Assembly (NCBI RefSeq): GCF_041146795.1
Contig: NC_135184.1
Span: 5,593,467-5,657,466 of the forward strand
Direction: 5' to 3'
Source of the DNA: Maylandia zebra
Taxonomy: Eukaryota > Chordata > Actinopteri > Cichliformes > Cichlidae
DNA length: 64,000 bases
The position numbers were made by a program, and so were the translations under genes. Every line of letters begins with the position of its first letter. The stretch's first letter is position 1. The notes beneath the pieces were generated by a model. The model was not told the origin of the DNA. It saw only the letters and a program-made list of their open reading frames with translations, and did not search any database. This document shows, in pieces, positions 10,515 to 48,518 of this stretch.

Positions 10515-12194
10515 CTATTTCACTTTAATCAACTCAGCTGTGGCTCCACAATCATCATCATAATCGTAGTAAAACGTCAGTCCAGCATAGAGCGGCTGAG
10601 TGAATGTGGTCTGGACTCTGTGGAGGAGAGTCATGGTTTCAGAGACGCTGTAGAAGGACAAAATACCTGCTCTGTGATCCAGGTACACTCCTACTCTGGA
10701 GGAACGAGGACCTGAGACAGGAGTTTGGATGTTGTTGTACCAAAATGTATAACTGTTGTTGTCACAATGTAATGACCAAGATTTGTCATTACGTCCAAAT
10801 CCACATTCACTCCCACTCCCTGCTCTGCTGATATTCTTGTATGCGACTGCTACATAAGCTCCTCTCCCTCTCCACTCCACCTCCCAGTAACAACGTCCAG
10901 TCAGACTCTCTCTACTCAGGACCTGAGACCAGTTAGTGAATCTGTCTGGATGATCAGAATAAGACTGTTGTTGATTCATTAATGTTGCTTTTCTGTTCCC
11001 CTCTGATAATAACAGACATTTGTATGCTGTGTTTGGATCCAGTGTGATTTCACATGAATATTTTAAGAATTCAGCTCTGGTCTTTGGCTCTGGTGGATCT
11101 GACAGTAAAACATCCACTTCAGTGACTGTCAGTGAGATGTTTGTCCATTCCTCTCTCAGAATGTCCTGTAGTTTATCTCTGACCTCTGACACAGCTGCTG
11201 CCACATCCTCAAAGTAGCTCAGAGGACGGATATTGATGCTGGATGAGTCTGTAGACTCACTGAGTGCTGACAGTGAGGGGTAGTTGTGTAGAAACTGGAT
11301 GTGATCCTCTGTGTGTGAGAGCTGCTTCAGCTCAGCATCTTTCCTCTTCAGCTCAGTGATCTCCTGCTCCAGCTTCTCCTGAAGCTCTTTGACTCGACTC
11401 ACTTCAGTTTCCTGCTGGGATCTGATCTGCTGCTTCACATCAGAGCTTCTTTTCTGGATGAGATGGATCAGCTCAGTGAAGATCTTCTCACTGTGCTCCA
11501 CTGTTTGATCAGCAGACTGATTGATGGCCTCCACCTCCTGTTGAAGCAGCTTCACATCTTTCTCTCTGTCCTGGATTCTCTGCTGGATGTTTTGTCGACT
11601 CACCTCCAGCTCTCTCTGCCTCTCAGTCCTTTCTGCTGCAGCTGAGACTGTGTCGTGGCCTTTATGTTCATCCACAGAGCAGAGATAACAGATACTCTGC
11701 TGATCAGTACGGCAGAACATCTTCATCACCTCATCATGACGAGAGCAGATGTTCTCCTGGAGCTTCTTGGAGGGCTCCACCAGCTTGTGTTTCTTTAATG
11801 GAGCCACATCATAATGAGGCTGAAGGTGTTTCTCACAGTAAGAGACCAGACAGAATAAACAGGACTTGAATGCTTTCATTTTTCTTCCAGTGCAGAAATC
11901 ACAGGCCACATCTTCAGGTCCAGCATAGCAGTGATCAGCAGGAGCAGCTTGGAGTCCAGTCTTCTTCAGCTCCTCCACTAAATCTGCTAACATGGTGTTT
12001 TTCTCCAGGACAGGCCTCGCTGTGAAAGTCCTCCGGCACTGAGGGCAGCTGTAGATTTTCTTCTTTTCCTCTTCATCCCAGAAGCTTTTAATACAGTTCA
12101 TGCAGTAGCTGTGTCCACAGGGAATAGTCACCGGATCCTTCAGTAGATCCAAACAGACTGAACAGCAGAATTTTGTTTGATCCATTTGATTCAT
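10515..12194 (-). CDS. TRIM E3 ubiquitin ligase, copy A (RING/B-box/CC/PRY-SPRY)
   Basis: This is a 559-residue single-exon TRIM protein. The RING ligands are Cys11, Cys14, Cys26, His28, Cys31, Cys34, Cys50 and Cys53 (C3HC4). B-box 1 lies at about 98-127 and B-box 2 at about 150-180 (CSRHDEV...CRTDQQ...CYLC..DEHKGH). A coiled coil spans about 185-310, and PRY-SPRY runs from about LDPNTA (residue 385) to the end with WEVEW near 440. The architecture and residues such as KKTGLQAAPADHC match the large teleost finTRIM / TRIM25-like / TRIM16-like group. Members are ubiquitin ligases, and several are interferon-induced antiviral effectors. Variable SPRY positions here read NWS after DRFT, with an Asp/Tyr-rich insertion before the C-terminus. 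All zinc ligands are intact and there is no frame damage. The orthologue cannot be fixed from sequence alone. Confidence 0.93.
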   Translation of the reverse strand: MNQMDQTKFCCSVCLDLLKDPVTIPCGHSYCMNCIKSFWDEEEKKKIYSCPQCRRTFTARPVLEKNTMLADLVEELKKTGLQAAPADHCYAGPEDVACDFCTGRKMKAFKSCLFCLVSYCEKHLQPHYDVAPLKKHKLVEPSKKLQENICSRHDEVMKMFCRTDQQSICYLCSVDEHKGHDTVSAAAERTERQRELEVSRQNIQQRIQDREKDVKLLQQEVEAINQSADQTVEHSEKIFTELIHLIQKRSSDVKQQIRSQQETEVSRVKELQEKLEQEITELKRKDAELKQLSHTEDHIQFLHNYPSLSALSESTDSSSINIRPLSYFEDVAAAVSEVRDKLQDILREEWTNISLTVTEVDVLLSDPPEPKTRAEFLKYSCEITLDPNTAYKCLLLSEGNRKATLMNQQQSYSDHPDRFTNWSQVLSRESLTGRCYWEVEWRGRGAYVAVAYKNISRAGSGSECGFGRNDKSWSLHCDNNSYTFWYNNIQTPVSGPRSSRVGVYLDHRAGILSFYSVSETMTLLHRVQTTFTQPLYAGLTFYYDYDDDCGATAELIKVK

Positions 12195-12233
12195 GTGCTG
12201 TGCCGTTTCACCGTCTCTCAGTGACTGTCAGAC

Positions 12234-12247
12234 AGTTTCACTTCCTC
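12234..12247 (-). promoter_or_regulatory. ISRE / ETS-IRF composite-like site upstream of TRIM A
   Basis: On + it reads AGTTTCACTTCCTC, one base off the ISRE core AGTTTCNNTTTC. On the gene strand it contains GGAAGTGAAA, an exact match to the ETS-IRF composite pattern GGAANNGAAA. It lies about 40-55 bases upstream of the ATG. It is identical in copies B and D and altered in C. Interferon control is plausible for this family but is inferred. Confidence 0.5.
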
Positions 12248-14815
12248 TGAACAGAAACAACCTCTCTGCTCTGAAGGGAAACAGATCTCTGCTCTTGTTC
12301 ACCTCCTACAGGAAATGAGGCTCACCAGCAACTGCATTTACACCATGTTGTTTAGACCCATCCTGATACAGACACATCTGTGAAGGGAGGCGCTAAAGAA
12401 ATATTCTTACAGAGCGACCAAGAGCCAATCACATGATGCAGGGTGTGGTATGTTTGGTTACAACATGCAGTAACAAGTCTGACCCAGTTAAAGTTTAACA
12501 ATTCATTTCTTCATGGTGCAAATATATAGTAGACTCAGGAGTTTAACTCAGTTTTCTTGGCCTTTGTTTATCGTTTCATTTGAAATCTTAATGGGTAAAG
12601 ATCATCATAATTACATATGAAATTATATGTGCAAATTATATGTTCCATTACACTATTAACAGCACAGATTATACAGCAAACATCAGATTCATGGATGGAG
12701 CCAGAGGCTAAATGACTGTTCAGTCCTCTTTAGGAAACGATCTTCATATGACGACAAACACGACAACAATCAGCTGTCAAACTGTACAAGAAGTTCACAG
12801 TAATGTAAAAGAAGTTATATCACTTTATTTTTAAATGTACGCACTCAGGGTCAGGACTGAAGACACTGATCGAGAAAATACTCTAAATATAAATATTCAC
12901 CTAAACATTCAAAATTATTCAATTGCATGAAAAGAAATATGAACTCTCTACAATACTGGCTTCTGATTGGTTGAAAAAGCAGGTGCTGAACTTCAGAAGA
13001 GCTAAACCTGCAAAACTGTGTAAACCCAGAGTGGATGCTACCCTCTGACCTTTCAGAAGTACGATCTTTTTATGAAGACACAGAGGCAGAGTTATTATTC
13101 ATCACTTTAAAGATGATATTCGTTATCTGTTCTTCACTCGTTGTCTAGTAAAGTCCAGAGAATGAGACACATGATTTCAAAACATGCAGCTGCATGTTAG
13201 AGATCACAGAGTTCTTCAGTCTTATGAGAACTCATGGAGACTAAATGTCAGACACATCAACAGTAAATGTCGTTCCTCCCCCCGTCAGTTTGTGTCCTCC
13301 ACACTTGTTTACACAAACATCTGAGGTTTGAACAGTGTGCAAAACCACATGTTACAAAGCTGCTGAGCTACTGAATACTGGAATATTTCATTCAATATCA
13401 CCATCTGACCAAAGGACAAACACAGAGAGGATTAGAGCGCCAAACTTTGTTTCAAACTGTTTCAGATTTTAGAGGCAAAAAGCAGAATTTCTACCTGGAC
13501 AAAGAAATCAAAGCAGGAGCAAAACAAGCTTTTTACATTTATTCAAAGGCATTATGTGAATGTACTCTGAGCCACAGCCTCCTAAAGTAAAGACATTTGA
13601 TCATCTAAACCAGACAGAGTCATGTTTTCAGCAGTGTCTGTATCCTCCATATAGACCATGCCATGGTCCACCTAGGGTGACCAGGTGTCTGACCTTATGT
13701 GGGACTACACAGCGCTCAGTCCTTGTTTGCCTGTGCCACACACACATTGAGCCAATGTCCAGTTTTTTTATTGACTCTAGTTTCTGTCGATCGGTAGGCC
13801 CACAAAAAACCCCTGTACAGGAAGTAGATTTCATCTCTCTGATAAAAGGAGTTCTAATCCCTGATCCTATGAGTCTGACCCAGTAGATGATATTGATATG
13901 ATCATATTTATGCCTTTGTTGTTTCACAAAGGGTTAAAAACATTCACAGGTTGGACTGTGGTTCTCCTTTTAACGTCTCTGCTGGAATTTTAACTGTGAA
14001 CCTCTTAGATCCAAACTTCTGAACTGCTCATCTCACAGAGGACAAAAGGGAAGAACCCCGAATCTCTTCTTCACCTCACTTTTATACCTGCTCACCCTTT
14101 CTCCCCCCTTCCCTCACTGGACGTCACATCTTCACACTTGGGCCAATCAGGTTGTTGACATTTGATCATCTGATGTGCACCCACACCTCATCTCTCTCTC
14201 TCTCTCTGACTCACAAGATTTAACACAAAGTTTAAACTTTAAAATCACTTCATTACATTTTCTTTGTTATTCTTAACACAGAAAATTCACATTCAAAAAC
14301 TTAACACAGAATAAAACAGAGTAGCCAGTAGTGGGACATGGTTCCAGCAACTCTGATGGTGACGGCCCGTTTGAAGCTGAAGCTCCGGCACGTGTGTCAA
14401 AAAATCAACACACTGCTTCAGAAACGCTGTGCTGAGGCTTGGTTTGACTGAACAGAGTCACGTGATCAATGACGACTGAAGCTTCATTCAGCACGTCACT
14501 GCTTCAGTACCTGATTCAATGATTTATAAGGAATTGAACCATTGGTGGGATTTGTGCCGTGTTTTGGTGATTTTGTGAGAGCGAATCAGTGTGTGACATA
14601 ATTATAGACATGGAGCCAGGAAGAGAGGACGCTCTGCCTGTTCCTCAATAAAAACCAGTTCATCAGCATTTCTGCTCCCAGGTCTAAAATGTACATAAGA
14701 AATATGATGTACACATAATTATAATGATATAACTTATAGTATATTATATATAAACGTACCAGTCTGCTGGTTAATTACATAATCAGGTGGAGGCAGTGAC
14801 CTCACAACCTCCTAT
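12248..14815. other. Spacer between TRIM A and the Rex1-like LINE
   Basis: No supported gene. Bases from 12732 on are repeated at 25596-27664 in unit 2. The site aggaaacgatcttca at 12732-12746 is the uninterrupted target of the L1-like insertion found in unit 2. A short TC repeat lies at about 14190-14208. A stretch near 13670 (agggtgaccaggtgtc) resembles the end of a known type of fish hAT element, but I cannot define both ends. Confidence 0.6.
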
Positions 14816-16800
14816 AAGCTTTAAGTTAAGGTTACTTTATTTATACCCACAGGTAAATTTGCTTTACAGAACAATGATAGCATTTGGCCTCCCTTCACAA
14901 ACACACACACCTAATGAAACCTGACAAAACACATATTTAGTAATTAAACAAAGTGAATCAAATCAAAAACAATTCTTCTTGAGTTCAGTGACAGCAGCAG
15001 GGACAAAGCTGTTTTTATAATGCTTTGTCCTGCATCTTGGAACTAGAAACCTCCGTCCTGAAGAAAGAAGCTAAATCCACCCCGTAGAGGATGGGAACCA
15101 TTTTTAAGGATTGATTAAGCATCTGTGGTACCTGTTTAGAGTACAGGGAGTCTAAACAGGCCTGTGACTCATCTATCAGACGACTGGACCATCTCACTCA
15201 CTAATTCAGTCAATTTTTCTCTGTGACAGAGGTCTGACTGAACCATGGCACCAAACAAAAAGATAAAACAGACTCAATAAAAGAACAAGAAAACAAAGTT
15301 AAAATCTTTCGCTCAATGTGGAAATGAGCAAGTTTCCTGAGGCAGTAAAGGCACTGGTGACCCTTTTTACAGACCGATTTGCAATAAAAGTTCAGTTTTT
15401 CATTGATTATGGTCCCAAGATATTTATATGATTGCACTTGCTCTATTTTCTGACCTTTAATTAAAGTGACTCTGTGCCCATTTAGTTGTTTCCTAAAATC
15501 AATAACCCTATCTTTTGTTTTAGATATGTTCAATTGGAGATAAGACTCCTCCCACCACTGAACAAACTAATCAATGATTGGACTATGGTGAGTTTCACCC
15601 TCTTTCAGTAAGCTGACAATAACAAAGTCATCTGTAAATTTAATGATGGCCCTGTTTTCATATCTGCTCTGACATGTGTTTGTAAAGAGAATGAATAATA
15701 AGGGCGATAAGAGACCCTGGAGGAGAAGCTGTGGAGGAGAACACTGGGTCAGACAGAACCCCATTTATTCTCACTCTTTGTGACCTGTCAGTTAACTCAT
15801 TCACTGCCAGCCATGAGTCAACGTATGCTTTCAATTGACGTCTATAGACGTCAATGGCAGTGAATGAGTTAAAAGATCTAAAATCCAGCAAACCAGGTTT
15901 TTCCTGATTTCAAACTCTTCTAAAAGTCTTTTCATTAAAATATGGGGCTGTATTGTATTAAAAGCTGAAGAAAAATCAATGAAAAGAAGTCTTGCAAAAG
16001 TCCCTTTACTCTCTACATGTTTAAGAATCAGATTTAGTCCAAAGCGCGTCCTGCACTCCTCTGTTGGGCCTGTACGCAAATTGCATTGGATCCAGCTGAT
16101 ATTCAATCTCTTCCATAATCACATTTCTGATGATGTTTTCAAAGACTTTCATGACAACTCAGGTGAGGCAACAGGCCTGAAGTCATTCAGGACGTTTGGA
16201 CGACTAGATTTAGGGACATGAACGACGACAGCTTCCTTCCAAAGCGAGGGCACATTTTGTATTTGAAAGAATTTATTGAAAATAAGCTGAAATTTAGGAC
16301 TGAGCTCTTTAGCACAAGATTTAATTAGGCGGCACTAATGTTATCAGGGCCCTGGCTCTTGTTCACATTAACTGTATGAAAGGCCTTTTGGACATCGCTG
16401 AGTTCAGTGATGAAGTGTTGAGTAACTTTCAGTTTCTGTTTCAGTTCAGAAGAACTAAAACGAGCATCAAGCATATTCAAATCTCTGTCTGACTTAAAAC
16501 CGTCTACAATGATCTGACTGCTGCTCTGGGGATTTTGAAACCCTGATATGGTTTTCATACAAGTCCAGGCAGACCCAAAATCTTTTGCTGCAAATTTTCT
16601 TTCAAGAAGGTTTTTGTAGATCTGTTTTGCTTTCAAGAGCTCGATTTTCAAGTCTTTGGTGACTGCCTGAAAGTCAGTAACAGCCCCCTCTTTAAAAGCC
16701 TGTCTCTTTTTCCTTAAACAGGATTTGATGCATTTGGTGACCCATGGCTTATTGTTAGGGTACACTTTAGCACGCTTAAGGGGTATAATCATGTCTTTAC
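14816..16800 (-). mobile_element. Degenerate Rex1/Babar-like (CR1 group) LINE, unit 1
   Basis: Fragments of a reverse transcriptase lie in broken frames on the minus strand: NKSQGPDNISAA (about 16330), RLLFIDFSSAFNTI (about 15960), a SPLLFILFTN and TDDFVIV palm region (about 15600-15720), and SKTKDRVIDFR...YLGTII (about 15440-15530). The 3' tail (14830-15200), with 'ttggaactagaaacctcc' on the + strand, is like Rex1 3' regions. No endonuclease domain is evident, so the element is 5'-truncated as well as frame-shifted. It is duplicated intact with its host unit at 27665-29575, so it inserted before the TRIM duplication. Confidence 0.8.
15796..15868. mobile_element. 73-bp TTAA MITE inside the LINE
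   Basis: TTAA (15792-15795) is repeated at 15869-15872. The ends are 14-base perfect inverted repeats (CTCATTCACTGCCA). The duplicate LINE in unit 2 has a single TTAA at 28645-28648, so the boundaries are certain. TTAA duplication fits piggyBac- or Kolobok-type elements. The interior has a palindrome (gacgtctatagacgtc). Confidence 0.9.
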
Positions 16801-18866
16801 AAAAACTGCATATGAGCTAACATCCACCAAAGCATCAAGACTGAATAAAAACTTCCCAATCTGTCAATTGAAAACATTCCTGCAAGGTAAGCACAGATTC
16901 TTCTGACCACATGATTGATTGATGATAACATAATTTTTTCACCCCCCAAAAATTCACGTTCAAAGCAACATATCAGCCCGATATCACACAGAACTGTCAC
17001 ATGACATCAAACACAAGCTGTCAGCTCTGCAGAGTGGGCAATCATAATGAAGCAGTTCATTATAAGCTGCAGACTCAAGCTGCTCTTCATATATTTGTCC
17101 ACCAGATGTCACCAAAGAGGACTGTGATGAAAGCTTCGAGTAATGAACCGTTTTTCATTACAAGCTTGGCCAACTGACTACAATCTACAATAAACTAATA
17201 TGGCTTTTCAATCCTCTCTTCAATCACTTGGTACCACCAGGAACCTTTAAATGGGCACTCAAGCTGCCTGGAGACTGTTTTGTCGTGCACATCAGAGAAA
17301 CCACAGGTAAGACAATCTTATCCAAAAGGTCAGTGTAACAGTATTGTTTTCCACCAGCTTAACCAAACTTCCCACACTAACTGAAATTTCTTTTCCCAGG
17401 CAAACATTAAACAGCAGCAGCTGGAAAACTGGAAAACCTAAAGCCAAATAATCAATAAGACATAACAAACTTTTGCATGAGTGAGTATTGAGAAACTGAG
17501 CAGAATTAAACCTCAGTGAAACCACATAAGTTCTGGTAACTGGCACATATTTATGTTTAATATGTTGTTTTATATTTTGATCAGTTTCAGGTGTTTGTGC
17601 GACTGTGTTAACCATCAGTAAAACCACATATAAATCACACTTCTGTGTTTAACAATTACAACACTTGATGCTGTTTTTCTGATTCAGGATTATGTGTGTG
17701 ATGAGTTGGCCACACAGTTCTTATCTTTCTGCTTCAGACACACACAAAACTGCCGAGGTTGAAGCTTCAGTCTCTTTCTACCCCAGGTCTCACCACATTT
17801 CCAAAATGTAAACTCTGAGTCTCATAAGAAATGTGGTTCAAAAAGATGTGCTGATCTATGAATGCATCCTTACTGAAAGCTAAAGATGTCCAGCAGACAA
17901 AAACAGCAGCTGAATGAACAGTTATCATGAGCGAGTGTACAAACACTATCACAGGAAATAACAGAAATAAACTGTAGTTTCCATTTATACCTGTAGTATT
18001 TTTTCAGCTCCATGTCATCTTCCAATATGTCAAAATATGATTTCATTGTATCTTAAACAAATACAAACTTCTTTCTTCCCCCCAGAGAGCCAACAGTTTA
18101 CTATCAGAACTGAGGCTGATCATTAACAGGGAGCAGCAGGTAACAAGGTCATCAGCAGTGGAGGAAAGTATGGAAGTAATACTCAGCTTCATATTTGAAG
18201 ATACTCGAGTATCTTAGCTGCAGGTCTGGAACAATGGTTTTATTTCCTTTCCCATTAAACATCTCACACAGCCCCTCATCTGTGACCCTTAGCAAACCCA
18301 CTGGATATCTACCTGCACATAAAGGAGATCAGATCAGTTCCATCTAGACCAGCTGTAACAGGAAAATGCTGCTTACACTTTGATGCATCACTTTCAGTTT
18401 GTCATATAAGACAATATATCAGATTGAGGCATTATTTTCCTGCAGTGAGTAAATCTACTTTGTACTTTACTCTTTTCTTTTAGGTAAAGGCTCTAAACAG
18501 TACTTGTACACTGTGGAAATCCCATAAGAACATCTCCTGAACTCTGAACAATAACAAAACAAAGACTAAAAGGAGGTCATGGGTGCTGATGATGATGATG
18601 ATGAGGAGGAGTAGCATGCATTTAAAAAGTGACTGATGTCCTAGAATACAACAGAACAGTGTCTCTACAAACTTATGAAAACATGACAGTCTTGCATTAG
18701 TTTGTATTCTTATGATTTCAAAAAACGAGGGAAAAATCTCCTTGAAATGCACAATTCCTTTTTGTTATTTCTTAGTGTGTGACGTATTTTATTGGCTTTA
18801 TGATTGGTGCAAACAGTTTCCTGATTCATAATGGAAATAGATTTTAGACACAGGAGGAACACGCAG
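16801..18866. other. Spacer DNA, unit 1; no gene supported
   Basis: The same sequence recurs at 29576-31644. It contains a (GAT)n-like microsatellite at about 18585-18606 that differs in length between copies. On the minus strand near 18000-18050 a small exon-like frame (MKSYFDILEDDMELKKY) ends at a GT donor in both copies, but nothing around it supports a gene. Confidence 0.5.
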
Positions 18867-18904
18867 TGATCAGCAGGAGCAGCTTGGAGTCCAGTCTTCT
18901 TCAC
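18867..18904 (-). pseudogene. 38-bp TRIM relic, unit 1
   Basis: This short segment is identical to the TRIM linker encoding KKTGLQAAPADHC between RING and B-box 1. It has no TRIM sequence on either side. The same relic is at 31645-31682. It looks like the last recognisable piece of a lost TRIM copy, or a conversion or insertion scrap. Confidence 0.7.
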
Positions 18905-20089
18905 ACTGAGGAGGGACATATATGCAGGAACAGTTGTCATAACTGTTACAACCACCAGATGGCGAAAGAGTCCCACTGCAACTTTAAGCCATGAAGGATG
19001 TGTCTTGATGTTTGTTTGTGATAAATCTGCTTTATGTGAGTCTTTTTCAGAGAGTAACAGTAATATGTCTGATTATATGTCTTTAATCAGTAAAGTCTCG
19101 CTTTGCTGGAAATAAATAAATAAATAATTGTAAACATGCAGCTGTATGTTAGAAGTCAAAGGGTCCTTAAGTCTTCTGTAAATTGACGGGGATCAAATGA
19201 AGGACACAAGTATCTGTTCTTACTCTAATAAATGCTGCTTTAATATCCAACAGACTATTTTCCTTCCTCATCAGCAGTAAACAGCTCGACTGCGTCTGTG
19301 CATTTGTGTCCTCCATACTTGTTTCCACAGACATCTCAGGCTTGATGCCACGATGCAGTGTAGAAACCTGACAACCCTCTGACTCATGTTCAAATGTTCA
19401 AGGACATTTCTCAGGATCATGTATGACCCCTTTTTGACATTTGGACTTTCATTAATAATATTTGTGTTTCTGAGTCATTTTTGTGGAGACTTCTGTCCAA
19501 CGTAGTGTCCAAATGAAGCCTGAAGCTTTTCTTCACCCTCTTGTCAGATGGTCAGCAACAAAACTCTGTTCCAACCAATGTCTGATAAGAGATGAGACAC
19601 AGCAGCTGAGCAAATGATCATTTCATGCTGAAGACATCCTCAGACAGAATTAAATACATACATAAACACAGCCTGGTGCCAATAACACAGCTAATGACAC
19701 TGCTGTATCACTGGCTTTACTGATTAAAGACCATATCTGAAGGAAATCTTTGAACACAACAGAAAGTGACCTTTTAAACCTGCGACACTGATGCTGCATT
19801 CAAGGACCATTAAAAACATTTGAAAGGACTTAAGAACATCAAGAAAATGTGACTTGTTTCTCTGTAATGAAGCGGTTTTAGTGAAGAAAGTTGAAAGGTC
19901 ACAGAGCGACTGCTGAATCTTCTGCTCTAAACATGAACTCTGAACTTTGTGATGCTTCAGGAGGAAAACTGCTTCAGTTATTCTCTCAGATTAGTTTCAT
20001 ATTTTCTGCGTCAGATTTGAGTGAGATCCTGGAATGAAGACAGAAGAAAAGACTTTGTTCAAAGTTTGATTTATAGTCAAACCTTCCAG
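18905..20089. other. Spacer and TRIM B 3' flank
   Basis: Noncoding DNA is shared with 31683-32861 and 44267-45409. From 19593 it is also shared with unit 1 (9585 on). It contains no supported gene. Confidence 0.6.
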
Positions 20090-20095
20090 TTTATT
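20090..20095 (-). terminator. Polyadenylation signal of TRIM B
   Basis: AATAAA on the minus strand, about 430 bases past the stop codon, in the same position as in the other TRIM copies. Confidence 0.6.
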
Positions 20096-20522
20096 CACAC
20101 AATAAAACATCAACACAATATATGAATTCATTCATTAAAATCACAGTTTTTCCTCATTTGTTTGATGATTTTGACAAAAACAAACACAAACACACACACA
20201 TGGTCGGCCATACTCATAAAGAGAAATGTCGACATTTTTCAAGACAAATATTCCAGAAACATTTAGAGGATAGAGAAGTTTACATTTTCATGTGGAGAAA
20301 TATTTTAGTAAATCAAAATGATGATGAGCAGTGATAGCCTCCATAAACAGTCACAGGAAAGATCTCCTTTAAAAACTCAGAAACATCAAGAGAACAACTA
20401 GAAGATGTGGAGGTACCACCCATAATGTTTGACTGACAGCTGATCTCTGTGCAGAAATGATGGAGAGAAAATAAAATGAAACTAAAACACAGATTTAAAC
20501 CCACAATATGAAAGACTTCAGT

Positions 20523-22193
20523 CTATTTCACTTTAATCAACTCAGCAGTATCTTCAAGTCCACTATAGTAAATCAACAGTCCAGCATAGAGCGGCTGAGT
20601 GAATGTGGTCTGGACTCTGTGGAGGAGAGTCATGGTTTCAGAGACGCTGTAGAAGGACAAAATACCTGCTCTGTGATTCAGGTACACTCCTACTCTGGAG
20701 GAACGAGGACCTGAGACACGAGTTTGGATGTTGTTGTACAAAAATGTAAAACTGTTGTTGTAACACTCTAATGACCAAGATTTGTCATTACGTCCAAACA
20801 AACATTCATTACCACATCCTTCTCTGCTGATATTCTTGTATGCGACTGCTACATCAACTCCTCTCCCTCTCCACTCCACCTCCCAGTAACAACGTCTAGT
20901 CAGACTCTCTCTACTCAGGACCTGCCACCTGTTAGTGAATCTGTCTGGATGATCAGAATAAGACTGTTGTTGATTCATAAATGTTACTTTTCTGTTCCCC
21001 TCTGATAATAACAGCAGTTTGTTTGCTGTGTTTGGATCCAGTGTGATTTCACATGAATATTTTAAGAATCCAGCTCTGGTCTTTGGCTCTGGTGGATCTG
21101 ACAGTAAAACATCCACTTCAGTGACTGTCAGTGAGATGTTTGTCCATTCCTCTCTCAGAATGTCCTGTAGTTTATCTCTGACCTCTGACACAGCTGCTGT
21201 CACATCCTCAAAGTAGCTCAGAGGACGGATATTGATGCTGGATGAGTCTGTAGACTCACTGAGTGCTGACAGTGAGGGGTAGTTGTGTAGAAACTGGATG
21301 TGATCCTCTGTGTGTGAGAGCTGCTTCAGCTCAGCATCTTTCCTCTTCAGCTCAGTGATCTCCTGCTCCAGCTTCTCCTGAAGCTCTTTGACTCGACTCA
21401 CTTCAGTTTCCTGCTGGGATCTGATCTGCTGCTTCACATCAGAGCTTCTTTTCTGGATGAGATGGATCAGCTCAGTGAAGATCTTCTCACTGTGCTCCAC
21501 TGTTTGATCAGCAGACTGATTGATGGCCTCCACCTCCTGTTGAAGCAGCTTCACATCTTTCTCTCTGTCCTGGATTCTCTGCTGGATGTTTTGTCGACTC
21601 ACCTCCAGCTCTCTCTGCCTCTCAGTCCTTTCTGCTGCAGCTGAGACTGTGTCGTGGCCTTTATGTTCATCCACAGAGCAGAGATAACAGATACTCTGCT
21701 GATCAGTACGGCAGAACATCTTCATCACCTCATCATGACGAGAGCAGATCTTCTCCTGGAGCTTCTTGGAGGGCTCCACCAGCTTGTGTTTCTTTAATGG
21801 AGCCACATCATAATGAGGCTGAAGGTGTTTCTCACAGTAAGATGCCAGACAGAATAAACAGGACTTGAATGCTTTCATTTTTCTTCCAGTGCAGAAATCA
21901 CAGGCCACATCTTCAGGTCCAGCATAGCAGTGATCAGCAGGAGCAGCTTGGAGTCCAGTCTTCTTCAGCTCCTCCACTAAATCTTCCACTAATAAGTTTT
22001 TCTCCAGGGCAGGCCTCGGTGTGAAAGTCCTCCGGCACTGAGGGCAGCTGTAGATTTTCTTCTTTTCCTCTTCATCCCAGAAGCTTTTAATACAGTTCAT
22101 GCAGTAGTTGTGTCCACAGGGAATAGTCACCGGATCCTTCAGTAGATCCAAACAGACTGAACAGCAGAATTTTGTTTGATCCATTTGATTCAT
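20523..22193 (-). CDS. TRIM E3 ubiquitin ligase, copy B
   Basis: This is a 556-residue intact single-exon TRIM with the same domain order and all RING and B-box zinc ligands as copy A. Differences before the SPRY are few: CGHNYC for CGHSYC in the RING, and TPRPALEKNLLVEDL for TARPVLEKNTMLADL in the linker. The SPRY differs at discrete spots: NRW after DRFT, VDVAV for AYVAV, REGCGNECL, SLECYNNSFTFLY, and a shorter C-terminal loop (LIYYSGLED). Its role is presumably the same E3 ligase fold with a different recognition surface. It lies head-to-tail with A and C, so independent promoters rather than a shared transcript are likely. Confidence 0.93.
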   Translation of the reverse strand: MNQMDQTKFCCSVCLDLLKDPVTIPCGHNYCMNCIKSFWDEEEKKKIYSCPQCRRTFTPRPALEKNLLVEDLVEELKKTGLQAAPADHCYAGPEDVACDFCTGRKMKAFKSCLFCLASYCEKHLQPHYDVAPLKKHKLVEPSKKLQEKICSRHDEVMKMFCRTDQQSICYLCSVDEHKGHDTVSAAAERTERQRELEVSRQNIQQRIQDREKDVKLLQQEVEAINQSADQTVEHSEKIFTELIHLIQKRSSDVKQQIRSQQETEVSRVKELQEKLEQEITELKRKDAELKQLSHTEDHIQFLHNYPSLSALSESTDSSSINIRPLSYFEDVTAAVSEVRDKLQDILREEWTNISLTVTEVDVLLSDPPEPKTRAGFLKYSCEITLDPNTANKLLLLSEGNRKVTFMNQQQSYSDHPDRFTNRWQVLSRESLTRRCYWEVEWRGRGVDVAVAYKNISREGCGNECLFGRNDKSWSLECYNNSFTFLYNNIQTRVSGPRSSRVGVYLNHRAGILSFYSVSETMTLLHRVQTTFTQPLYAGLLIYYSGLEDTAELIKVK

Positions 22194-22232
22194 GTGCTGT
22201 GCCGTTTCAGCGTCTCTCAGTGACTGTCAGAC

Positions 22233-22246
22233 AGTTTCACTTCCTC
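22233..22246 (-). promoter_or_regulatory. ISRE / ETS-IRF-like site upstream of TRIM B
   Basis: Same 14 bases (AGTTTCACTTCCTC on +) and same distance to the ATG as in copy A. Confidence 0.5.
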
Positions 22247-22872
22247 TGAACAGAAACAACCTCTGTGCTCTGAAGGGAAACAGATCTCTGCTCTTGTTCA
22301 CCTCCTACAGGAAATGAGGCTCACCAGCAACTGCATTTACACCATGTTGTTTAGACCCATCCTGATACAGACACATCTGTGAAGGGAGGCACTAAAGAAA
22401 TATTCTTACAGAGCGACCAAGAGCCAATCACATGATGCAGGGTGTGGTATGTTTGGTTACAACATGCAGTAACAAGTCTGACCCAGCTAAAGTTTAATAG
22501 TTTAACTTTACGTGGATGTTTGAAATTGAAGTTTTATAGGACTCTCTGTTTAATTGTTGTTTTGTTTGGAGCGATGGTTCTTTTTATTTAAATAATTGAT
22601 GATAATTTGATATATTTGATTATTTATTACTGGTGCAAACAATTCATTTCTTCATGGTGCAAATATATAGTTGACTCAGGAGTTTAACTCAGTTTTCTTG
22701 GCCTTTGTTTATCGTTTCATTTAAAATCTTAATGGGTAAAGATCATCATAATTACATATGAAATTATATGTGCAAATTATATGTTCCATTACACTTTTAA
22801 CAGCACAGATTATACAGCAAACATCAGATTCATGGATAGAGCCAGAGGCTAAATGACTGTTCAGTCCTCTTT
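22247..22872. other. TRIM B upstream flank
   Basis: No gene seen. It holds about 150 bases (22499-22649) missing from unit 1 but partly matched upstream of TRIM D, so unit 1 is the one with the deletion. Confidence 0.6.

Positions 22873-25552: not shown

Positions 25553-25595
<43 letters not shown>
22888..25595 (+). mobile_element. L1-like retroposon with TSD and double poly(A)
   Basis: A 14-15-base target duplication, aggaaacgatcttca, flanks the insert (about 22873-22887 and 25595-25609), and unit 1 has the single empty site at 12732-12746. The insert ends in poly(A) (about 25557-25595). The GC-rich part (about 24290-25200) and following T- and C-rich stretch resemble teleost L1 3' regions as I remember them. 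The first 1.3 kb shows no reverse transcriptase, so the coding core is missing. An earlier A-run at 25472-25490 is followed by about 65 unique bases and then the terminal poly(A), as in a 3' transduction. Open frames inside are GC-rich chance frames. Confidence 0.8.
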
Positions 25596-25597
<2 letters not shown>

Positions 25598-31644: not shown

Positions 31645-31682
31645 GTGATCAGCAGGAGCAGCTTGGAGTCCAGTCTTCTTCA
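31645..31682 (-). pseudogene. 38-bp TRIM relic, unit 2
   Basis: Same isolated KKTGLQAAPADHC-coding scrap as at 18867-18904, with the same flanks, so it predates the unit duplication. Confidence 0.7.
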
Positions 31683-32861: not shown

Positions 32862-33294
32862 TTTATTCACACAATAAAACATCAACACAATATATGAAGT
32901 CATTCATTACAATCACAGTTTTTCCTCATTTCTTTGATGATTTTGACAAAAACAAACACAAACACACACACATGGTCTGCCATACTCATAAAGAGAAATG
33001 TCGACATTTTTCAAGACAAATATTCCAGAAACATTTAGAGGATAGAGAAGTTTACATTTTCATGTGGAGAAATATTTTAGTAAATCAAAATGATGATGAG
33101 CAGTGATAGCCTCCATAAACAGTCACAGGAAAGATCTCCTTTAAAAACTGAGAAACATCAAGAGAACAACTAGAAGATGTGGAGGTACCACCCATAATGT
33201 TTGACTGACAGCTGATCTCTGTGCAGAAATGATGGAGAGAAAATAAAATGAAACTAAAACACAGATTTAAACACACAATATGAAAGACTTCAGT

Positions 33295-34962
33295 CTATTT
33301 GAGCTTAATCAACTCAGCAGTGGCTCCATAATAATAAGGCAACAGTCCAGCATAGAGCGGCTGAGTGAATGTGGTCTGGACTCTGTGGAGGAGAGTCATG
33401 GTTTCAGAGACGCTGTAGAAGGACAAAATACCTGCTCTGTGATCCAGGTACACTCCTACTCTGGAGGAACGAGGACCTGAGACACGAGTTTGGATGTTGT
33501 TGTACCAAAATGTAAAACTGTTGTTGTTACAATCTAATGACCAAGATTTGTCATTATGTCCAAATTTACATTCATTACTATTCCCTGCTCTGCTGATATT
33601 CTTGTATGCGACTGCTACATAAGCTCCTCTCCCTCTCCACTCCACTTCCCAGTAGCAACGTCCAGTCAGACTCTCTCTACTCAGGACCTGACAACATCCA
33701 GTGAATCTGTCTGGATGATCAGAATAAGACTGTTGTTGATTCATAAATGTTGCTTTTCTGTTCCCCTCTGATAATAACAGCCATGTGTTTGCTGTGTTTG
33801 GATCCAGTGTGATTTCACGCGAATATTTTAAGAATCCAGCTCTGGTCTTTGGCTCTGCTGGTGGATCTGACAGTAAAACATCCACTTCAGTGACTGTCAG
33901 TGAGATGTTTGTCCATTCCTCTCTCAGAACGTCCTGTAGTTTATCTCTGACCTCTGACACAGCTGCTGTCACATCCTCAAAGTAGCTCAGAGGACGGATA
34001 TTGATGCTGGATGAGTCTGTAGACTCACTGAGTGCTGACAGTGAGGGGTAGTTGTGTAGAAACTGGATGTGATCCTCTGTGTGTGAGAGCTGCTTCAGCT
34101 CAGCATCTTTCCTCTTCAGCTCAGTGATCTCCTGCTCCAGCTTCTCCTCAAGCTCTTTGACTCGACTCACTTCAGTTTCCTGCTGGGATCTGATCTGCTG
34201 CTTCACATCAGAGCTTCTTTTCTGGATGAGATGGATCAGCTCAGTGAAGATCTTCTCACTGTGCTCCACTGTTTGATCAGCAGACTGATTGATGGCCTCC
34301 ACATCATGTTGAAGCAGCTTCACATCTTTCTCTCTGTCCTGGATTCTCTGCTGGATGTTTTGTCGACTCACCTCCAGCTCTCTCTGCCTCTCAGTCCTTT
34401 CTGCTGCAGCTGAGACTGTGTCGTGGCCTTTATGTTCATCCACAGGGCAGAGATAACAGATACTCTGCTGATCAGTACGGCAGAACATCTTCATCACCTC
34501 ATCATGACGAGAGCAGATGTTCTCCTGAAGCTTCTTGGAGGGCTCCACCAGCTTGTGTTTCTTTAATGGAGCTACTTCATAATGTGGCTGAAGGTGTTTC
34601 TCACAGTAAGATGCCAGACAGAATAAACAGGACCTGAAGGCTTTCATTTTTCTTCCAGTGCAGACATCACAGGCCACATCTTCAGGTCCAGCATAGCAGT
34701 GATCAGCAGGAGCAGCTTGGAGTCCAGTCTTCTTCAGCTCCTCCACTAAATCTGCTAACATGGTGTTTTTCATCAGGACAGGCCTCGCTGTGAAAGTCCT
34801 CCGGCACTGAGGGCAGCTGTAGATTTTCTTCTTTTCCTCTCCATCCCAGAAGCTTTTAATACAGTTCATGCAGTAGCTGTGTCCACAGGGAATAGTCACC
34901 GGATCCTTTAGTAGATCCAAACAGACTGAACAGCAGATTTTTGTTTGATCCATTTGATTCAT
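33295..34962 (-). CDS. TRIM E3 ubiquitin ligase, copy C
   Basis: This is a 555-residue intact single-exon TRIM with the same architecture and zinc ligands as A and B. Copy-specific features are FWDGEEKKK in the RING, a Ser-to-Pro change in B-box 2 (YLCPVDEH), HDVEA for QEVEA in the coiled coil, and one extra Ala before the PRY (DPPAEPK). In the SPRY it reads GCC after DRFT, AGNSNECK, SLDCNNNSFTFWY and a short C-terminal loop (LPYYYG) ending ELIKLK. The changed upstream ISRE-like site suggests its induction may differ from its sisters (inference). Confidence 0.93.
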   Translation of the reverse strand: MNQMDQTKICCSVCLDLLKDPVTIPCGHSYCMNCIKSFWDGEEKKKIYSCPQCRRTFTARPVLMKNTMLADLVEELKKTGLQAAPADHCYAGPEDVACDVCTGRKMKAFRSCLFCLASYCEKHLQPHYEVAPLKKHKLVEPSKKLQENICSRHDEVMKMFCRTDQQSICYLCPVDEHKGHDTVSAAAERTERQRELEVSRQNIQQRIQDREKDVKLLQHDVEAINQSADQTVEHSEKIFTELIHLIQKRSSDVKQQIRSQQETEVSRVKELEEKLEQEITELKRKDAELKQLSHTEDHIQFLHNYPSLSALSESTDSSSINIRPLSYFEDVTAAVSEVRDKLQDVLREEWTNISLTVTEVDVLLSDPPAEPKTRAGFLKYSREITLDPNTANTWLLLSEGNRKATFMNQQQSYSDHPDRFTGCCQVLSRESLTGRCYWEVEWRGRGAYVAVAYKNISRAGNSNECKFGHNDKSWSLDCNNNSFTFWYNNIQTRVSGPRSSRVGVYLDHRAGILSFYSVSETMTLLHRVQTTFTQPLYAGLLPYYYGATAELIKLK

Positions 34963-35001
34963 GTGCTGTGCCGTTTCAGCGTCTCTCAGTGACTGTCAGA
35001 C

Positions 35002-35015
35002 AGTTTGACTTTCTC
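35002..35015 (-). promoter_or_regulatory. Altered ISRE-like site upstream of TRIM C
   Basis: It reads AGTTTGACTTTCTC on +. Relative to the other three copies the first half-site is damaged (TTTC to TTTG) while the second becomes TTTC. The ETS-IRF pattern GGAANNGAAA is lost. Confidence 0.45.
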
Positions 35016-35160
35016 TGAACAGAAACAACCTCTGTGCTCTGAAGGGAAACAGATCTCTGCTCTTGTTCACCTCCTACAGGAAATGAGGCTCACCAGCAAC
35101 TGCATTTACACCATGTTGTTTAGACCCATCCTGATACAGACACATCTGTGAAGGGAGGCA

Positions 35161-36528: not shown

Positions 36529-37774
36529 GTACTGTGGTGTAAAAAAGTCATTAACCGCATGCTTGCTTCACCTACTTAGCTTTAGTATTTTAATTTCTTA
36601 ACTGGACATCCAAAGCTTTGCTCACTGCAGCTGTATTGCGCAGTTATGTTACACCCCTGAAAGCAGAGGGGAAATTACGAGTGATTTTCAAGTGATTCTC
36701 TCATGCAGTAGTTTAATGCAATGAAAAATGAACATAAGTAATTCACATTGCGTACTGCTCAATGTCACACAGTGGAAGAAAGCGCTAATTAATAACCCAA
36801 AAATAACAATTGAGTGCTTACTATTTGTATCTGAACACGTTTCCGTACAAAATAGATAACAATAGAAACGTTTGTAGCTCCTGCCGTTAGCTTAATGGCC
36901 ATTGTGCAATTGAGGCTCAAAACCGCGGCCTACCCACTAAAAATCTATAATAAAATGTTTCTGAAGCTCACAAAATAACGAAAGACTACCTATAAAATAT
37001 CTCAACAACGTACAGAGTATAAAATATCATGTTTTGACCACCATTACCTTAAAACACGGAGGAAAGAATGACGAGGGTGATTTTGAGATGCTTCTCTTCT
37101 GCAGTAGTTTTGTAATGAGGAGAGAGCGCGCGAAAGCCCCCTGGTAGAGAAAGAAGCCATTACCAATCGATCCCAGAAAAGACTTACTAGCCGATTACTG
37201 ATGTACAGATCGCAGTTCTCTTGAATCAAATGACAACCATTAATGCAACATGAAAAATAACCAATTTAAAACAATTTCGCAGTGTATTTACATTGTTTTC
37301 AGGCTTATGAATTTGTATTAACTGAGTGCCTTTTTTTTTTTTTACTGTCAACTCTTTTAGTACAAAATCAACTTATGAATAACACCTGTATGGAGTCTTT
37401 TGGTACTGCTAAGGGGCTATAAGGGTAGTTTTCCACCCTGTCACAGTTACAGCAGCACTTTGTATCATCCACAGTCCTGAAAATTTTGGTGCATTGTTGT
37501 ATTGTTGGGTTATATTTTTAAAAAAAATTGAAAACGAAAAAACTTTTTGTTATTCGTGAATGTATTTTACTGTATTTATTACCAGTGCAAATAATTCAAT
37601 TATTCATAATGGACACTCAAGTTTACAAAAAACTTGAAGGAATTTAAAATTTAACAAATTATAGATAAAAAGATCAAAACTAGCCATTTAAATCCTGCCT
37701 CAGTTTTTGTAGCAAATCTTAAAAAGAATATTCAACATAAAAATGTAAACACATCTGCAGATATTTTCCTATAG
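36529..37774. other. Intergenic DNA; no gene supported
   Basis: AT-rich sequence with a T-run near 37330. Near 37570-37620 it weakly resembles the distal TRIM flank (compare 22620-22680). Confidence 0.45.
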
Positions 37775-38100
<326 letters not shown>

Positions 38101-39265
38101 TTTCCTTGCTGCACTATTTCACTTGTTTTCAGTGACTTTTGAACAAATAGCTGAGAGTACATTTTAATGTGCAGCCTCAGAAGGCGAACTCATGTTACAT
38201 ATGAAACAGGACATAAATAGGCATTATATCTGAAACAAATTAAAACAATGCTTTGAACACACTTCAGATCTGAAAAGGGAAAAAAACTCATGCTGGATAT
38301 CTGAGCTGATATGAACTGAGTACTATGTTAGGAACCAAAGGATTTCACATTGTATGATGGAAATGAAAACTGAATTGAACTGAATCTCCACCCAGGTCTC
38401 AAAAACATAATGTCTGGTGAGGTTTTTCAGGGGGGTTATGATTAAAATGCAACACCGCAACCTCGGGGAATTTCACCGCTATGAAATATAAAGATTGTAG
38501 TTTCAAACAAGCCAAACAAATGATAACGCAGGCTCGAATACACTACTGATGCAGACTGGTTTCAACATCAAAATACTTTTATTCAATATATTTGTTAAAA
38601 ACAAACAAACAAATACAAATAAAACAGAAGTTAAAACAAGTGGAGCATGAATCAGTATAAAGGTTGATTGTGAAGGAAAACAACCAAATATTGAGCTGGA
38701 CTTACCAGTAGCTGAGGACCATGGGGAGAAAAAAGGCACACGTACAAACCAACCACCTATATACACAAGGTGGTGTAAAACAAAAGGAATGTGGAAAACA
38801 ACCCACTGGCATGAAGGCCCCTCAGCTACTAGCTTATCCTACTTTTAAACCTCTAATAGGACACTTACCACCAGGCTCATTGCTCACAGTCATACAAGAA
38901 GAACTACTAAAATCTACTCCAAGCATTTTAAAACATCACACATGCTTTTAAAACAAAGAAAATAAAAAATACACAAGTCAAATAGTAATTTACACTCCAC
39001 AGGTGAATGATGGTTGTTATATCTGATCCTAGCACAAACACACTTTGTGCTAGAACACAATGCAGCATGGGGCCATCTGTGGCGACTGGAGCAAGTCAAA
39101 CAGACAAATAGCAGATGTAAGCAGACACCAGCAAGACACACGTGAAGAGATCCTTCGAACCCAACGACGTAGGCAAAACAGAAATATAAGAATCTGAATC
39201 AGAATTGTGTTTATTGGCCATGTATATGTGCGGTAGATGGTGACTCACAAGCACAGCAATGTAAA

Positions 39266-39320: not shown

Positions 39321-39322
<2 letters not shown>

Positions 39323-40660: not shown

Positions 40661-40664
40661 TCTT

Positions 40665-41955: not shown

Positions 41956-41956
41956 T

Positions 41957-43994: not shown

Positions 43995-44002
43995 CTGATT
44001 TG

Positions 44003-45409: not shown

Positions 45410-45415
45410 TTTATT
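45410..45415 (-). terminator. Polyadenylation signal of TRIM D
   Basis: AATAAA on the minus strand, the counterpart of the signals of the other copies, but about 1.44 kb past the stop because a hAT element lies between. Confidence 0.55.
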
Positions 45416-45760: not shown

Positions 45761-46766
45761 CAGTGTTGGTCAAGTTACTTGAAAAAGGTAATCAGTAACT
45801 AATTATTGTTTACTTCCCCAAAAAAGTAATATCGTTACTTTACTGATTACTTATTTTCAAAAGTAATTAATTACTTAGTTACTTTTTAAAAACACGATTT
45901 ACAACCTGAATAGGTGATAAAGCGATAGATCTTTCAGCCCAATTCTACTTTTTCTGCATAATCCATCATACAAAATGTAATCAAATGGAAAAGTCTCTTC
46001 TTAAAACTTATTTTATCAGTTTTAATCTTTTAACTTTATGCATCAAGAAAAAATTTAATTACATGCAACATTCTCTGACTGGAAGAAATTTGTTTAATAT
46101 TTAAACCTATTTTCTGCACATTCCAGCACATAAAATGATTTTTTTTGTGTGTGTTTTTACACTCAGTCTTTCAAATAGATGCAAGTAAAACACAGCAGAA
46201 AATAAATAAAGTCAAAGACTCAGCGGTCCTGTTGCTCTATTTTCACCTGTAAAGCAGGAGTGGTGTAGGCAGAGGTTTACCTTGGTGCAGGTGTGCCGCG
46301 GTCAGTTGAAGAATCCGCGAGTTTCTCTTTGAGTTTCCCATTACGTCGTTGCGCACTCGGTGCTTGCTTGGAAGTTAAGGGGTTTTTTTTCGCAGTAAAA
46401 AGAAGTTTTCTTCCCACGCACGATGGACACTAATGTTTTTGTCACTTTTTATGGAATCAAACTCAAAGTAAGGTCAGTACTTCCACGCTTTAAACGCTGC
46501 ACGCTCATACTCTCTCCCGCACTCGATATATGATCCATTGTTGATCTGCACACAGCTGTTGTCACGAACGTCGCACTCGATTACGTCACTGTCATGAGAC
46601 ATTCTCGCAAAAAGAAAATCACGGTTTTAGTAACGCAGTAACACAGCGTTCCTACAGGAAAGTAACGGTAATCTAATTACTCTATTTGCAAAAGTAATCC
46701 CCCATTACTTGAAAAAAGTAATCGATTACTTAAGTAACACTCAGTAACGCGTTACAAGTATCTCTG
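45761..46766. mobile_element. Non-autonomous hAT element in the TRIM D 3' UTR, 1006 bp
   Basis: The 8-base duplication CTGACAGC lies at 45753-45760 and 46767-46774. The other three TRIM copies have the intact single site. The ends begin CAGTGTTGGTCAAGTTACTTG on the left and have CAGAGATACTTGTAACGCG as the complement on the right, with subterminal GTAAC/GTTAC-rich repeats. There is no transposase frame. Confidence 0.92.
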
Positions 46767-46856
46767 CTGACAGCTGATCTCTGTGCAGAAATGATGGAGA
46801 AAAAATAAAATGAAACTAAAACACAGATTTAAACCCACAATATGAAAGACTTCAGT

Positions 46857-48518
46857 CTATTTGAGCTTAATCAACTCAGCTGTGTCTCCATAATAGTAAA
46901 GCATCAGTCCAGCATAGAGCGGCTGAGTGAATGTGGTCTGGACTCTGTGGAGGAGAGTCATGGTTTCAGAGACGCTGTAGAAGGACAAAATACCTGCTCT
47001 GTGATCCAGGTACACTCCTACTCTGGAGGACTGAGGACCTGAGACACGAGTGTGGATGTTGTTGGACCAAAATGTATAACTGTTGTTGAACCACTGTAAT
47101 GCCCATGATTTGTCATTATGTCCAAATACACATTCATTCACACTCTCTGCTCTGCTGATATTCTTGTATGCGACTGCTACATAAACTCCTCTCCCTCTCC
47201 ACTCCACCTCCCAGTAACAACGTCCAGTCAGACTCTCTCTACTCAGGACCTGAAACCACCAAGTGAATCTGTCTGGATGATCAGAATAAAACTGTTGTTT
47301 CATGAAGGTTACTTTTCTGTTCCCCTCTGATAATAACAGCTGTTTGTACGCTGTGTTTGGATCCAGTGTGATTTCACATGAATATTTTAAGAATTCAGCT
47401 CTGGTCTTTGGCTCTGGTGGATCTGACAGTAAAACATCCACTTCAGTGACTGTCAGTGAGATGTTTGTCCATTCCTCTCTCAGAATGTCCTGTAGTTTAT
47501 CTCTGACCTCTGACACAGCTGCTGTCACATCCTCAAAGTAGCTCAGAGGACGGATATTGATGCTGGATGAGTCTGTAGACTCACTGAGTGCTGACAGTGA
47601 GGGGTAGTTGTGTAGAAACTGGATGTGATCCTCTGTGTGTGAGAGCTGCTTCAGCTCAGCATCTTTCCTCTTCAGCTCAGTGATCTCCTGCTCCAGCTTC
47701 TCCTGAAGCTCTTTGACTCGACTCACTTCAGTTTCCTGCTGGGATCTGATCTGCTGCTTCACATCAGAGCTTCTTTTCTGGATGAGATGGATCAGCTCAG
47801 TGAAGATCTTCTCACTGTGCTCCACTGTTTGATCAGCAGACTGATTGATGGCCTCCACCTCCTGTTGAAGCAGCTTCACATCTTTCTCTCTGTCCTGGAT
47901 TCTCTGCTGGATGTTTTGTCGACTCACCTCCAGCTCTCTCTGCCTCTCAGTCCTTTCTGCTGCAGCTGAGACTGTGTCGTGGCCTTTATGTTCATCCACA
48001 GAGCAGAGATAACAGATACTCTGCTGATCAGTACGACAGAACATCTTCATCACCTCATCATGACGAGAGCAGATGTTCTCCTGGAGCTTCTTGGAGGGCT
48101 CCACCAGCTTGTGTTTCTTGAATGGAGCCACATCATAATGAGGCTGAAGGTGTTTCTCACAGTAAGATGCCAGACAGAATAAACAGGACTTGAAGGCTTT
48201 CATTTTTCTTCCAGTGCAGACATCACAGGCCACATCTTCAGGTCCAGCATAGCAGTGATCAGCAGGAGCAGCTTGGAGTCCAGTCTTCTTCAGCTCCTCC
48301 ACTAAATCTGCTAACATGGTGTTTTTCTCCAGGACAGGCCTCGCTGTGAAAGTCCTCCGGCACTGAGGGCAGCTGTAGATTTTCTTCTTTTCCTCTTCAT
48401 CCCAGAAGCTTTTAATACAGTTCATGCAGTAGCTGTGTCCACAGGGAATAGTCACCGGATCCTTCAGTAGATCCAAACAGACTGAACAGCAGAATTTTGT
48501 TTGGTCCATTTGATTCAT
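46857..48518 (-). CDS. TRIM E3 ubiquitin ligase, copy D
   Basis: This is a 553-residue intact single-exon TRIM with the same domain order and complete zinc ligands. The front half is nearly identical to A (APFKKHK for APLKKHK). The SPRY is distinct: AYKQ before LLLSEG, MKQQFYS for MNQQQSYS with one residue fewer, WWF after DRFT, AESVNECV, ALQWFNNSYTFWS, HTRVSGPQ, and a C-terminal loop MLYYYGD. Its predicted 3' UTR contains a 1-kb hAT insertion. An ISRE/ETS-IRF-like site lies upstream as in A and B. Confidence 0.93.
   Translation of the reverse strand: MNQMDQTKFCCSVCLDLLKDPVTIPCGHSYCMNCIKSFWDEEEKKKIYSCPQCRRTFTARPVLEKNTMLADLVEELKKTGLQAAPADHCYAGPEDVACDVCTGRKMKAFKSCLFCLASYCEKHLQPHYDVAPFKKHKLVEPSKKLQENICSRHDEVMKMFCRTDQQSICYLCSVDEHKGHDTVSAAAERTERQRELEVSRQNIQQRIQDREKDVKLLQQEVEAINQSADQTVEHSEKIFTELIHLIQKRSSDVKQQIRSQQETEVSRVKELQEKLEQEITELKRKDAELKQLSHTEDHIQFLHNYPSLSALSESTDSSSINIRPLSYFEDVTAAVSEVRDKLQDILREEWTNISLTVTEVDVLLSDPPEPKTRAEFLKYSCEITLDPNTAYKQLLLSEGNRKVTFMKQQFYSDHPDRFTWWFQVLSRESLTGRCYWEVEWRGRGVYVAVAYKNISRAESVNECVFGHNDKSWALQWFNNSYTFWSNNIHTRVSGPQSSRVGVYLDHRAGILSFYSVSETMTLLHRVQTTFTQPLYAGLMLYYYGDTAELIKLK

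Follow-up and report, generated by a model that had tools for sequence, protein, structure and literature searches.

How do tandem gene copies that are nearly identical in their flanking DNA come to differ so sharply in a single domain? The question is raised by a 64,000-nucleotide stretch of the Maylandia zebra genome (hereafter the window), in which four intact, intronless TRIM genes, T1 to T4, follow one another head to tail, all on the minus strand and 10-14 kb apart. Each runs from ATG to TAG with no internal stop, a single open frame spans RING to SPRY in all four copies, and all four proteins carry RING, B-box, coiled coil and PRY-SPRY in that order, above the Pfam cut-offs. The explanation that we prefer, and hold to be probable, is that of a young tandem array of finTRIM-like genes, related to TRIM25 and TRIM16, in which an almost unchanged scaffold is combined with differing PRY-SPRY loops under the joint action of selection and conversion tracts. 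The sample is four copies from one window, a copy number possibly affected by alleles assembled in tandem. The genes, the duplicated unit and a gene remnant are as follows.

10515..12194, minus strand: T1, single-exon open reading frame (ORF) of 559 amino acids; Pfam RING, B-box, TRIM_CC, PRY and SPRY above cut-off
20523..22193, minus strand: T2, single-exon ORF of 556 amino acids; same Pfam domains as T1
33295..34962, minus strand: T3, single-exon ORF of 555 amino acids; same Pfam domains as T1
46857..48518, minus strand: T4, single-exon ORF of 553 amino acids; same Pfam domains as T1
12732..22391, no strand assigned: duplicated unit of ~9.6 kb that includes T2; its second copy, at 25595-35160, includes T3 and is 97.9-98.8% identical
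37774..38102, minus strand: decayed TRIM fragment, front part, with deletions, frameshifts and one stop

The array would have grown in part by duplication of the ~9.6 kb unit, from which at least T2 and T3 would stem; T1 and T4 have the gene plus shorter flanks in common, as against the full unit of T2 and T3. About 1 kb at 45761-46766, directly downstream of the T4 gene, is unique to the T4 unit among the four. The decayed fragment has codon 64 in common with T3, codon 5 with T4, and codons 100 and 108 with both.

Where the four copies differ

When the genes and the flanks common to all four are aligned and compared in all six pairs, the difference is largest in SPRY, the anomalous part of the genes. 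SPRY diverges by 6.3-8.8%, the front of the gene (codons 1-376) by 0.7-2.6%, the 5' flank by 1.0-2.6% and the 3' flank by 0.5-1.3%; of 549 SPRY positions 68 vary, as do 36 of 1128 in the front and 22 of 1248 in the flanks. Amino-acid changes affect 37 of the 177 gap-free SPRY codons and 23 of 375 front codons (Fisher P = 6e-7), and the hypervariable SPRY spots described in the initial annotation, which was made from the sequence alone, are real. Within SPRY the anomaly lies in codons 377-498 and in the C-terminal loop. Some 31 of the 121 codons in 377-498 are variable in amino acid, where a crude estimate from the flank rate would lead one to expect ~5; over codons 447-498, the amino acid varies at 19 of 52 codons, whereas silent sites (at amino-acid-invariant codons) are changed at 1 of ~20. 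The stretch that follows, codons 499-540, is quiet, with 1 of 42 codons variable in amino acid and 0 of ~32 silent sites changed.

The conserved front that had been reported stands as far as its low divergence goes, although it is not uniform: T2 carries 10 private changes at codons 59-70, to which we return below. What does not stand is conservation as a sign of constraint, for the non-coding flanks are equally conserved; because the front resembles them, its "conservation" mostly reflects recent duplication or homogenisation. Counted nonsynonymous over synonymous change per site (pN/pS) in the front is 0.66 (bootstrap 0.35-1.45), and strong constraint is not seen there.

The residues and codons quoted for the spots, namely the triplets after DRFT, the five residues before ECxFG, the WS/AL..NNS segment and the length changes of the C-terminal loop, were all read correctly, and codon column 394 is to be added to them as one of the most variable sites. 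Columns 422-424 are flanked by codons identical to the base in all copies, and the spot at columns 459-469 begins AGSGS, EGCGN, AGNSN and AESVN in T1, T2, T3 and T4.

T1 11016..11018, T2 21015-21017, T3 33781-33783, T4 47340-47342, minus strand: codon of column 394; C, L, W and Q in T1 to T4
10926..10934, minus strand: spot after DRFT, columns 422-424, in T1; NWS, encoded by AACTGGTCT
20925..20933, minus strand: the same columns in T2; NRW, encoded by AACAGGTGG
33691..33699, minus strand: the same columns in T3; GCC, encoded by GGATGTTGT
47253..47261, minus strand: the same columns in T4; WWF, encoded by TGGTGGTTT
T1 10791..10823, T2 20790-20822, T3 33556-33588, T4 47118-47150, minus strand: spot at columns 459-469; T1 reads AGSGSECGFGR
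T1 10737..10775, T2 20736-20774, T3 33502-33540, T4 47064-47102, minus strand: spot at columns 475-487; T1 reads SLHCDNNSYTFWY
T1 10542..10577, T2 20550-20576, T3 33322-33342, T4 46884-46904, minus strand: C-terminal loop, columns 541-554, with length changes; T1 reads TFYYDYDDDCGA

Where in the fold do these spots fall? TRIM21, represented by PDB chain 9qba_A, was aligned with the four proteins by phmmer and by MAFFT. Both alignments place column 394, the strongest site, at TRIM21 W299 and columns 422-424 at residues 327-329. Column 477 falls on W381 by phmmer, while MAFFT puts W381 at column 486; our preference for the former is a judgement, made on the ground that the W-S/T-I/L motif stays aligned in it. 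In an excerpt of PMC6722209, W299, D355, W381, W383, F450 and D452 are given as key contacts of TRIM21 with the Fc part of immunoglobulin G (IgG). Judged by this homology, the variable spots are B30.2 variable-loop positions, as had been proposed, they align with the ligand-binding loops of TRIM21, and the change in SPRY is confined to loop positions. A SPRY model predicted from the four aligned rows reached a mean predicted local distance difference test score (pLDDT) of 48 and a TM-score of ~0.3 to the listed PDB matches; the Foldseek matches listed for it are PRY-SPRY/B30.2 structures. Because it was too poor, the model was left out of the mapping, and whether the variable residues lie on one face was judged by homology alone.

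Selection and exchange between copies

Per-site codon models, the check suggested in the initial annotation, favour selection. In SPRY, model M2a improves on M1a by a 2dL (twice the difference in log-likelihood) of 39-44 on all three topologies, with omega, the ratio of nonsynonymous to synonymous rates, at 13-16 for 9-10% of sites. The standard whole-SPRY fit gives posteriors above 0.9 to columns 394, 422, 424, 466, 477, 479, 542, 550 and 561. With silent-rate variation allowed, 2dL drops to 6.5 (p 0.038) for the whole domain, or to 10.4 (p 0.0055) when the C-terminal loop is excluded, and columns 394, 422 and 466 are retained; the posterior of omega>1 at column 394 is 1.0, and 0.976 when silent rates vary in the fit of the whole SPRY. 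The fits with silent-rate variation, those without the C-terminal loop and those of the front were made on a single topology. Selected sites in the B30.2 variable loops, a feature described for finTRIMs, are thus present here, though more weakly once silent rates may vary.

Are the copies related by a simple tree? Sites that split the copies two against two do so in three conflicting ways, 6/5/5 in SPRY and 2/2/2 in the front and flanks together, so that the relations of T1 to T4 fit no single tree and the copies form a mosaic. In simulations on one tree (2000 runs each), the front and flanks yielded at most 2 conflicts where at least 4 are needed, and the 10 conflicts needed in SPRY were reached with P 0.0005 or 0.003 (change confined to 120 or 90 sites). 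Neighbouring informative SPRY sites (17, including column 376) share a split 5 times against 4.8 expected (P 0.56); since this is not above chance, exchange tracts, if any, are short, and long tracts are unsupported. Amino-acid selection seems to act jointly with exchange between copies. Two short patches bear on the further matter of import from elsewhere.

21984..22019, minus strand: T2 codons 59-70, after RING; 10 private base changes in 35 bp
18863..18903, minus strand: 41 bp identical to TRIM coding sequence (CDS 227-267), lying in non-TRIM DNA downstream of T2; the T3 unit has the piece too, at the matching place (31642-31682)

When the 12 private front changes of T2 were placed at random 20000 times, the maximum was 6 per 36 bp, against the 10 observed in 35 bp, and codons 59-70 look as though a short stretch had been brought in from a diverged relative. 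The fragment at 37774-38102 lacks those changes, so that no source of the patch was found in the window; a SPRY donor sequence was likewise not found within the window. The 41-bp patch is possibly a templated repair insertion. Of the two processes originally put forward, selection or conversion from a donor pool, selection is supported by the high-omega class and exchange among the copies by the split conflicts, while for an outside donor there is one candidate, the patch in T2.

Several results weigh against our preferred explanation. The front is nominally M2a-positive as well (2dL 8.3, p 0.016), a signal that drops to 0.4 without codons 59-70 and is nil with silent-rate variation. Equal rates at the spots, named at the outset as evidence against diversification of a binding surface, are in part what counting gives, with pN 0.26 against pS 0.22 (ratio 1.19, bootstrap 0.63-2.87 on ~15 silent sites, not significant), yet the same pN is ~4 times the pS of the remaining SPRY (0.059); over the whole of SPRY, counted pN/pS is 0.91 (0.57-1.57). 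Silent change, counted for SPRY and front at amino-acid-invariant codons, is itself raised in SPRY, at 10 of ~94 sites; the front has 7 of ~220 (P 0.012 against SPRY) and the flanks have 22 of 1248 positions (P 3e-5). Four of the ten changes sit in the last 21 codons, and the rest amount to 6 of ~88 (P 0.21 versus the front, 0.008 versus the flanks). We read this as amino-acid selection with some block replacement, the latter strongest in the C-terminal loop. With four sequences the power of codon models is limited, and omega comes out too high where blocks change or conversion acts. The split conflicts in the C-terminal loop hinge on a gapped alignment; without the columns from 541 on, the splits are 4/4/2, and at least 6 of 10 sites still conflict. 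Among the six TRIM21 contacts, W299 and W381 alone match variable columns: F450 aligns with an invariant Tyr (column 544), two residues past variable columns 541-542, W383 with an invariant Asn (MAFFT) or a gap (phmmer), D355 with a gap adjoining variable column 448, and D452 with a residue present in T1 only, within the stretch of length change. Finally, an interferon-response motif, sought with one pattern, is absent from the 4 kb upstream of any gene start; the pattern has 7 matches in the window against 2.9 expected (4 of 100 shuffles reach 7), and the nearest upstream match lies 4.2 kb from a gene start.

Could it be instead that the loop differences were copied in mainly as short conversion patches, that the donor pool consists of diverged SPRY sequences of TRIM or NLR-B30.2 genes at other places in the genome, and that selection only filters the outcome? 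Whole codons are replaced on a background of 1% divergence, codons with two or three base differences in some pair numbering 16 of 177 in SPRY and 5 of 375 in the front, and the raised silent changes of SPRY lie near replacement codons, at a mean distance of 1.6 codons where 3.9 would be expected (P 0.004), or of 2.0 against 6.7 (P 0.054) once the C-terminal loop is set aside. The foreign-looking patch at T2 codons 59-70 fits such import, and the 41-bp TRIM patch in unrelated DNA implies that short templated copying may occur at the locus. On the other hand, the window holds no SPRY donor, the spot at columns 422-424 would need very short tracts between its base-invariant neighbours, codons 447-498 combine 19 of 52 changed codons with 1 of ~20 silent sites, and neighbouring informative sites do not share splits above chance; we give import as the main source a minor but real chance. 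That SPRY might simply be older, its differences kept by selection while conversion or unequal crossing-over recently homogenised the front and flanks, we consider unlikely: homogenisation is plausible enough, given that the front is about as similar as the flanks and that splits conflict there too, but codons 499-540 vary as little as the front does, and SPRY as a whole does not look old.

The remaining alternatives are weaker still. It is quite improbable that some of the copies are alleles of one gene wrongly placed in tandem; identity between units is ~98%, and next to the array there is another block that is present twice (in pieces within 1-6653 and 53868-58058), but the T4 unit has an insertion of its own and less flank in common, and there are four distinct versions of SPRY. 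Hypermutation confined to the spots and free of selection, such as a cytidine deaminase-like activity might cause, would account for the tight clustering of changes; with variable C/G positions of codons 377-540 not enriched in WRC/GYW motifs (7 of 27, versus 45 of 191 where C/G is invariant in an analysis that took T1 as the reference; P 0.81) and replacement far exceeding silent change in codons 447-498, it deserves hardly any credence.

Under selection combined with conversion, which we continue to prefer, the RING/B-box/coiled-coil scaffold would stay nearly constant while the PRY-SPRY binding loops come to differ from copy to copy. Selection for altered ligand binding would drive the loop changes, short conversion tracts between copies would reshuffle the loops and homogenise the remainder, and occasional conversion from more distant TRIM genes may contribute. 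By analogy, each SPRY might bind a different pathogen or host ligand, and the common RING might then ubiquitinate the target or trigger interferon signalling, as reported for other finTRIMs.

Kinship with known B30.2 systems

Among the best 60 of 153 PDB-chain matches of T3, a comparison with solved structures only, TRIM25 (1e-65) and TRIM16 (8.9e-38) come first, and trim25 and trim16 are also the closest mammalian relatives of the finTRIMs in the excerpted text of PMC2657112. The same excerpts describe finTRIMs as near-identical in RING and B-box and clustered in one orientation, with positive selection in B30.2 falling mostly in the TRIM21 loops and the TRIM5alpha hypervariable regions, and with one recombination breakpoint in B30.2. 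The array shares with them the domain layout, the near-identical N-terminal parts, the one-way clustering, the TRIM25/TRIM16 kinship, the selection on B30.2 loops and the coding length: the coding exons given there for zebrafish (555-594, 96, 234, 154, 60 and ~545) add up to 1644-1683, a range that includes the 1662-1680 bp of T1 to T4 with the stop. It departs from zebrafish ftr genes, which have six coding exons, in being intronless. An intronless coding region does not by itself exclude finTRIM membership, because PMC2657112, as excerpted, counts single-exon medaka genes as fintrim (47 of 55 homologues); this was the only paper on intronless teleost B30.2 TRIMs that a limited text search returned, and others may exist. 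The copies are, moreover, only ~1% apart in flanking DNA, and the term finTRIM-like is based on these shared features. Relatives outside the window did not turn up in viral or genome contig collections, each scanned with two short N-terminal peptide patterns. As to function, an excerpt of PMC5445110 reports that the finTRIM FTR83 requires its RBCC (RING, B-box, coiled-coil) and B30.2 parts alike for antiviral activity.

How far does the likeness extend beyond finTRIMs? Loop selection has been extended to the btr and trim35 families (PMC3137616, in excerpt). Zebrafish NLR-B30.2 genes, for which conversion and positive selection are described and tracts shorter than the B30.2 exon, recombining variants, are considered (PMC4852459, in excerpt), resemble T1 to T4 in a B30.2 domain shaped by selection plus gene conversion; they differ in being NACHT/LRR receptors without a RING or E3 ligase part, and none of the four proteins has a NACHT match at E up to 0.001. 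Primate TRIM5alpha and TRIM22 likewise have selected hypervariable B30.2 loops, the beta2-beta3 loop being the hot spot there, although they belong to another TRIM lineage, and TRIM5alpha varies between primate species at one locus (PMC2657112 and PMC3137616, both in excerpt). With the PRY-SPRY of TRIM21 the copies share the same domain by sequence, with variable columns on or beside several ligand contacts; TRIM21 is an antibody Fc receptor, and the likeness of T1 to T4 to it is one of sequence only.

The surrounding DNA and the place of the array

The DNA around the genes holds further features. A 573-amino-acid coiled-coil-like ORF (5316-7037) has no Pfam match; its block, within 1-6653, recurs beyond the TRIM array at 53868-58058, where the second copy carries an ORF at 56721-58349, its pieces being 98.7-99.6% identical and the end of the ORF differing past ~58058. 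On the minus strand at 58815-63497 lies a 1560-amino-acid ORF that looks by eye like the pol of a long terminal repeat (LTR) retroelement; the ORF that lies upstream of it, at 63452-64000, is gag-like. Similar ORFs at 16325-16816 and 29099-29590, one per duplicated unit, resemble by eye remnants of a long interspersed nuclear element (LINE), and an ORF of 219 amino acids without a Pfam match (8495-9154) adjoins T1. Scans of the whole window with Rfam (gathering threshold) and for tRNAs gave no match.

A bolder conjecture, to which we assign a low probability, is that of a germline cassette system, in which the SPRY loops on a fixed E3-ligase scaffold would be rewritten by templated patches of tens of bases from a dispersed donor pool. 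If this were so, binding specificity would change faster than any neutral site nearby, the intronless, close-set copies would be the acceptors, and the patch at T2 codons 59-70 and the 41-bp patch would be by-products of the copying.

The principle is already published, in B30.2 selection among finTRIMs, in intronless medaka finTRIMs and in NLR-B30.2 conversion, and the array is a fresh, young case of it. Because its duplicates are ~1% apart in neutral DNA, loop changes, single or in patches, are visible one by one; single changes are not so distinct where the paralogues compared are older, as in the zebrafish set (PMC2657112, in excerpt). The array is therefore a good place for separating point selection from conversion.

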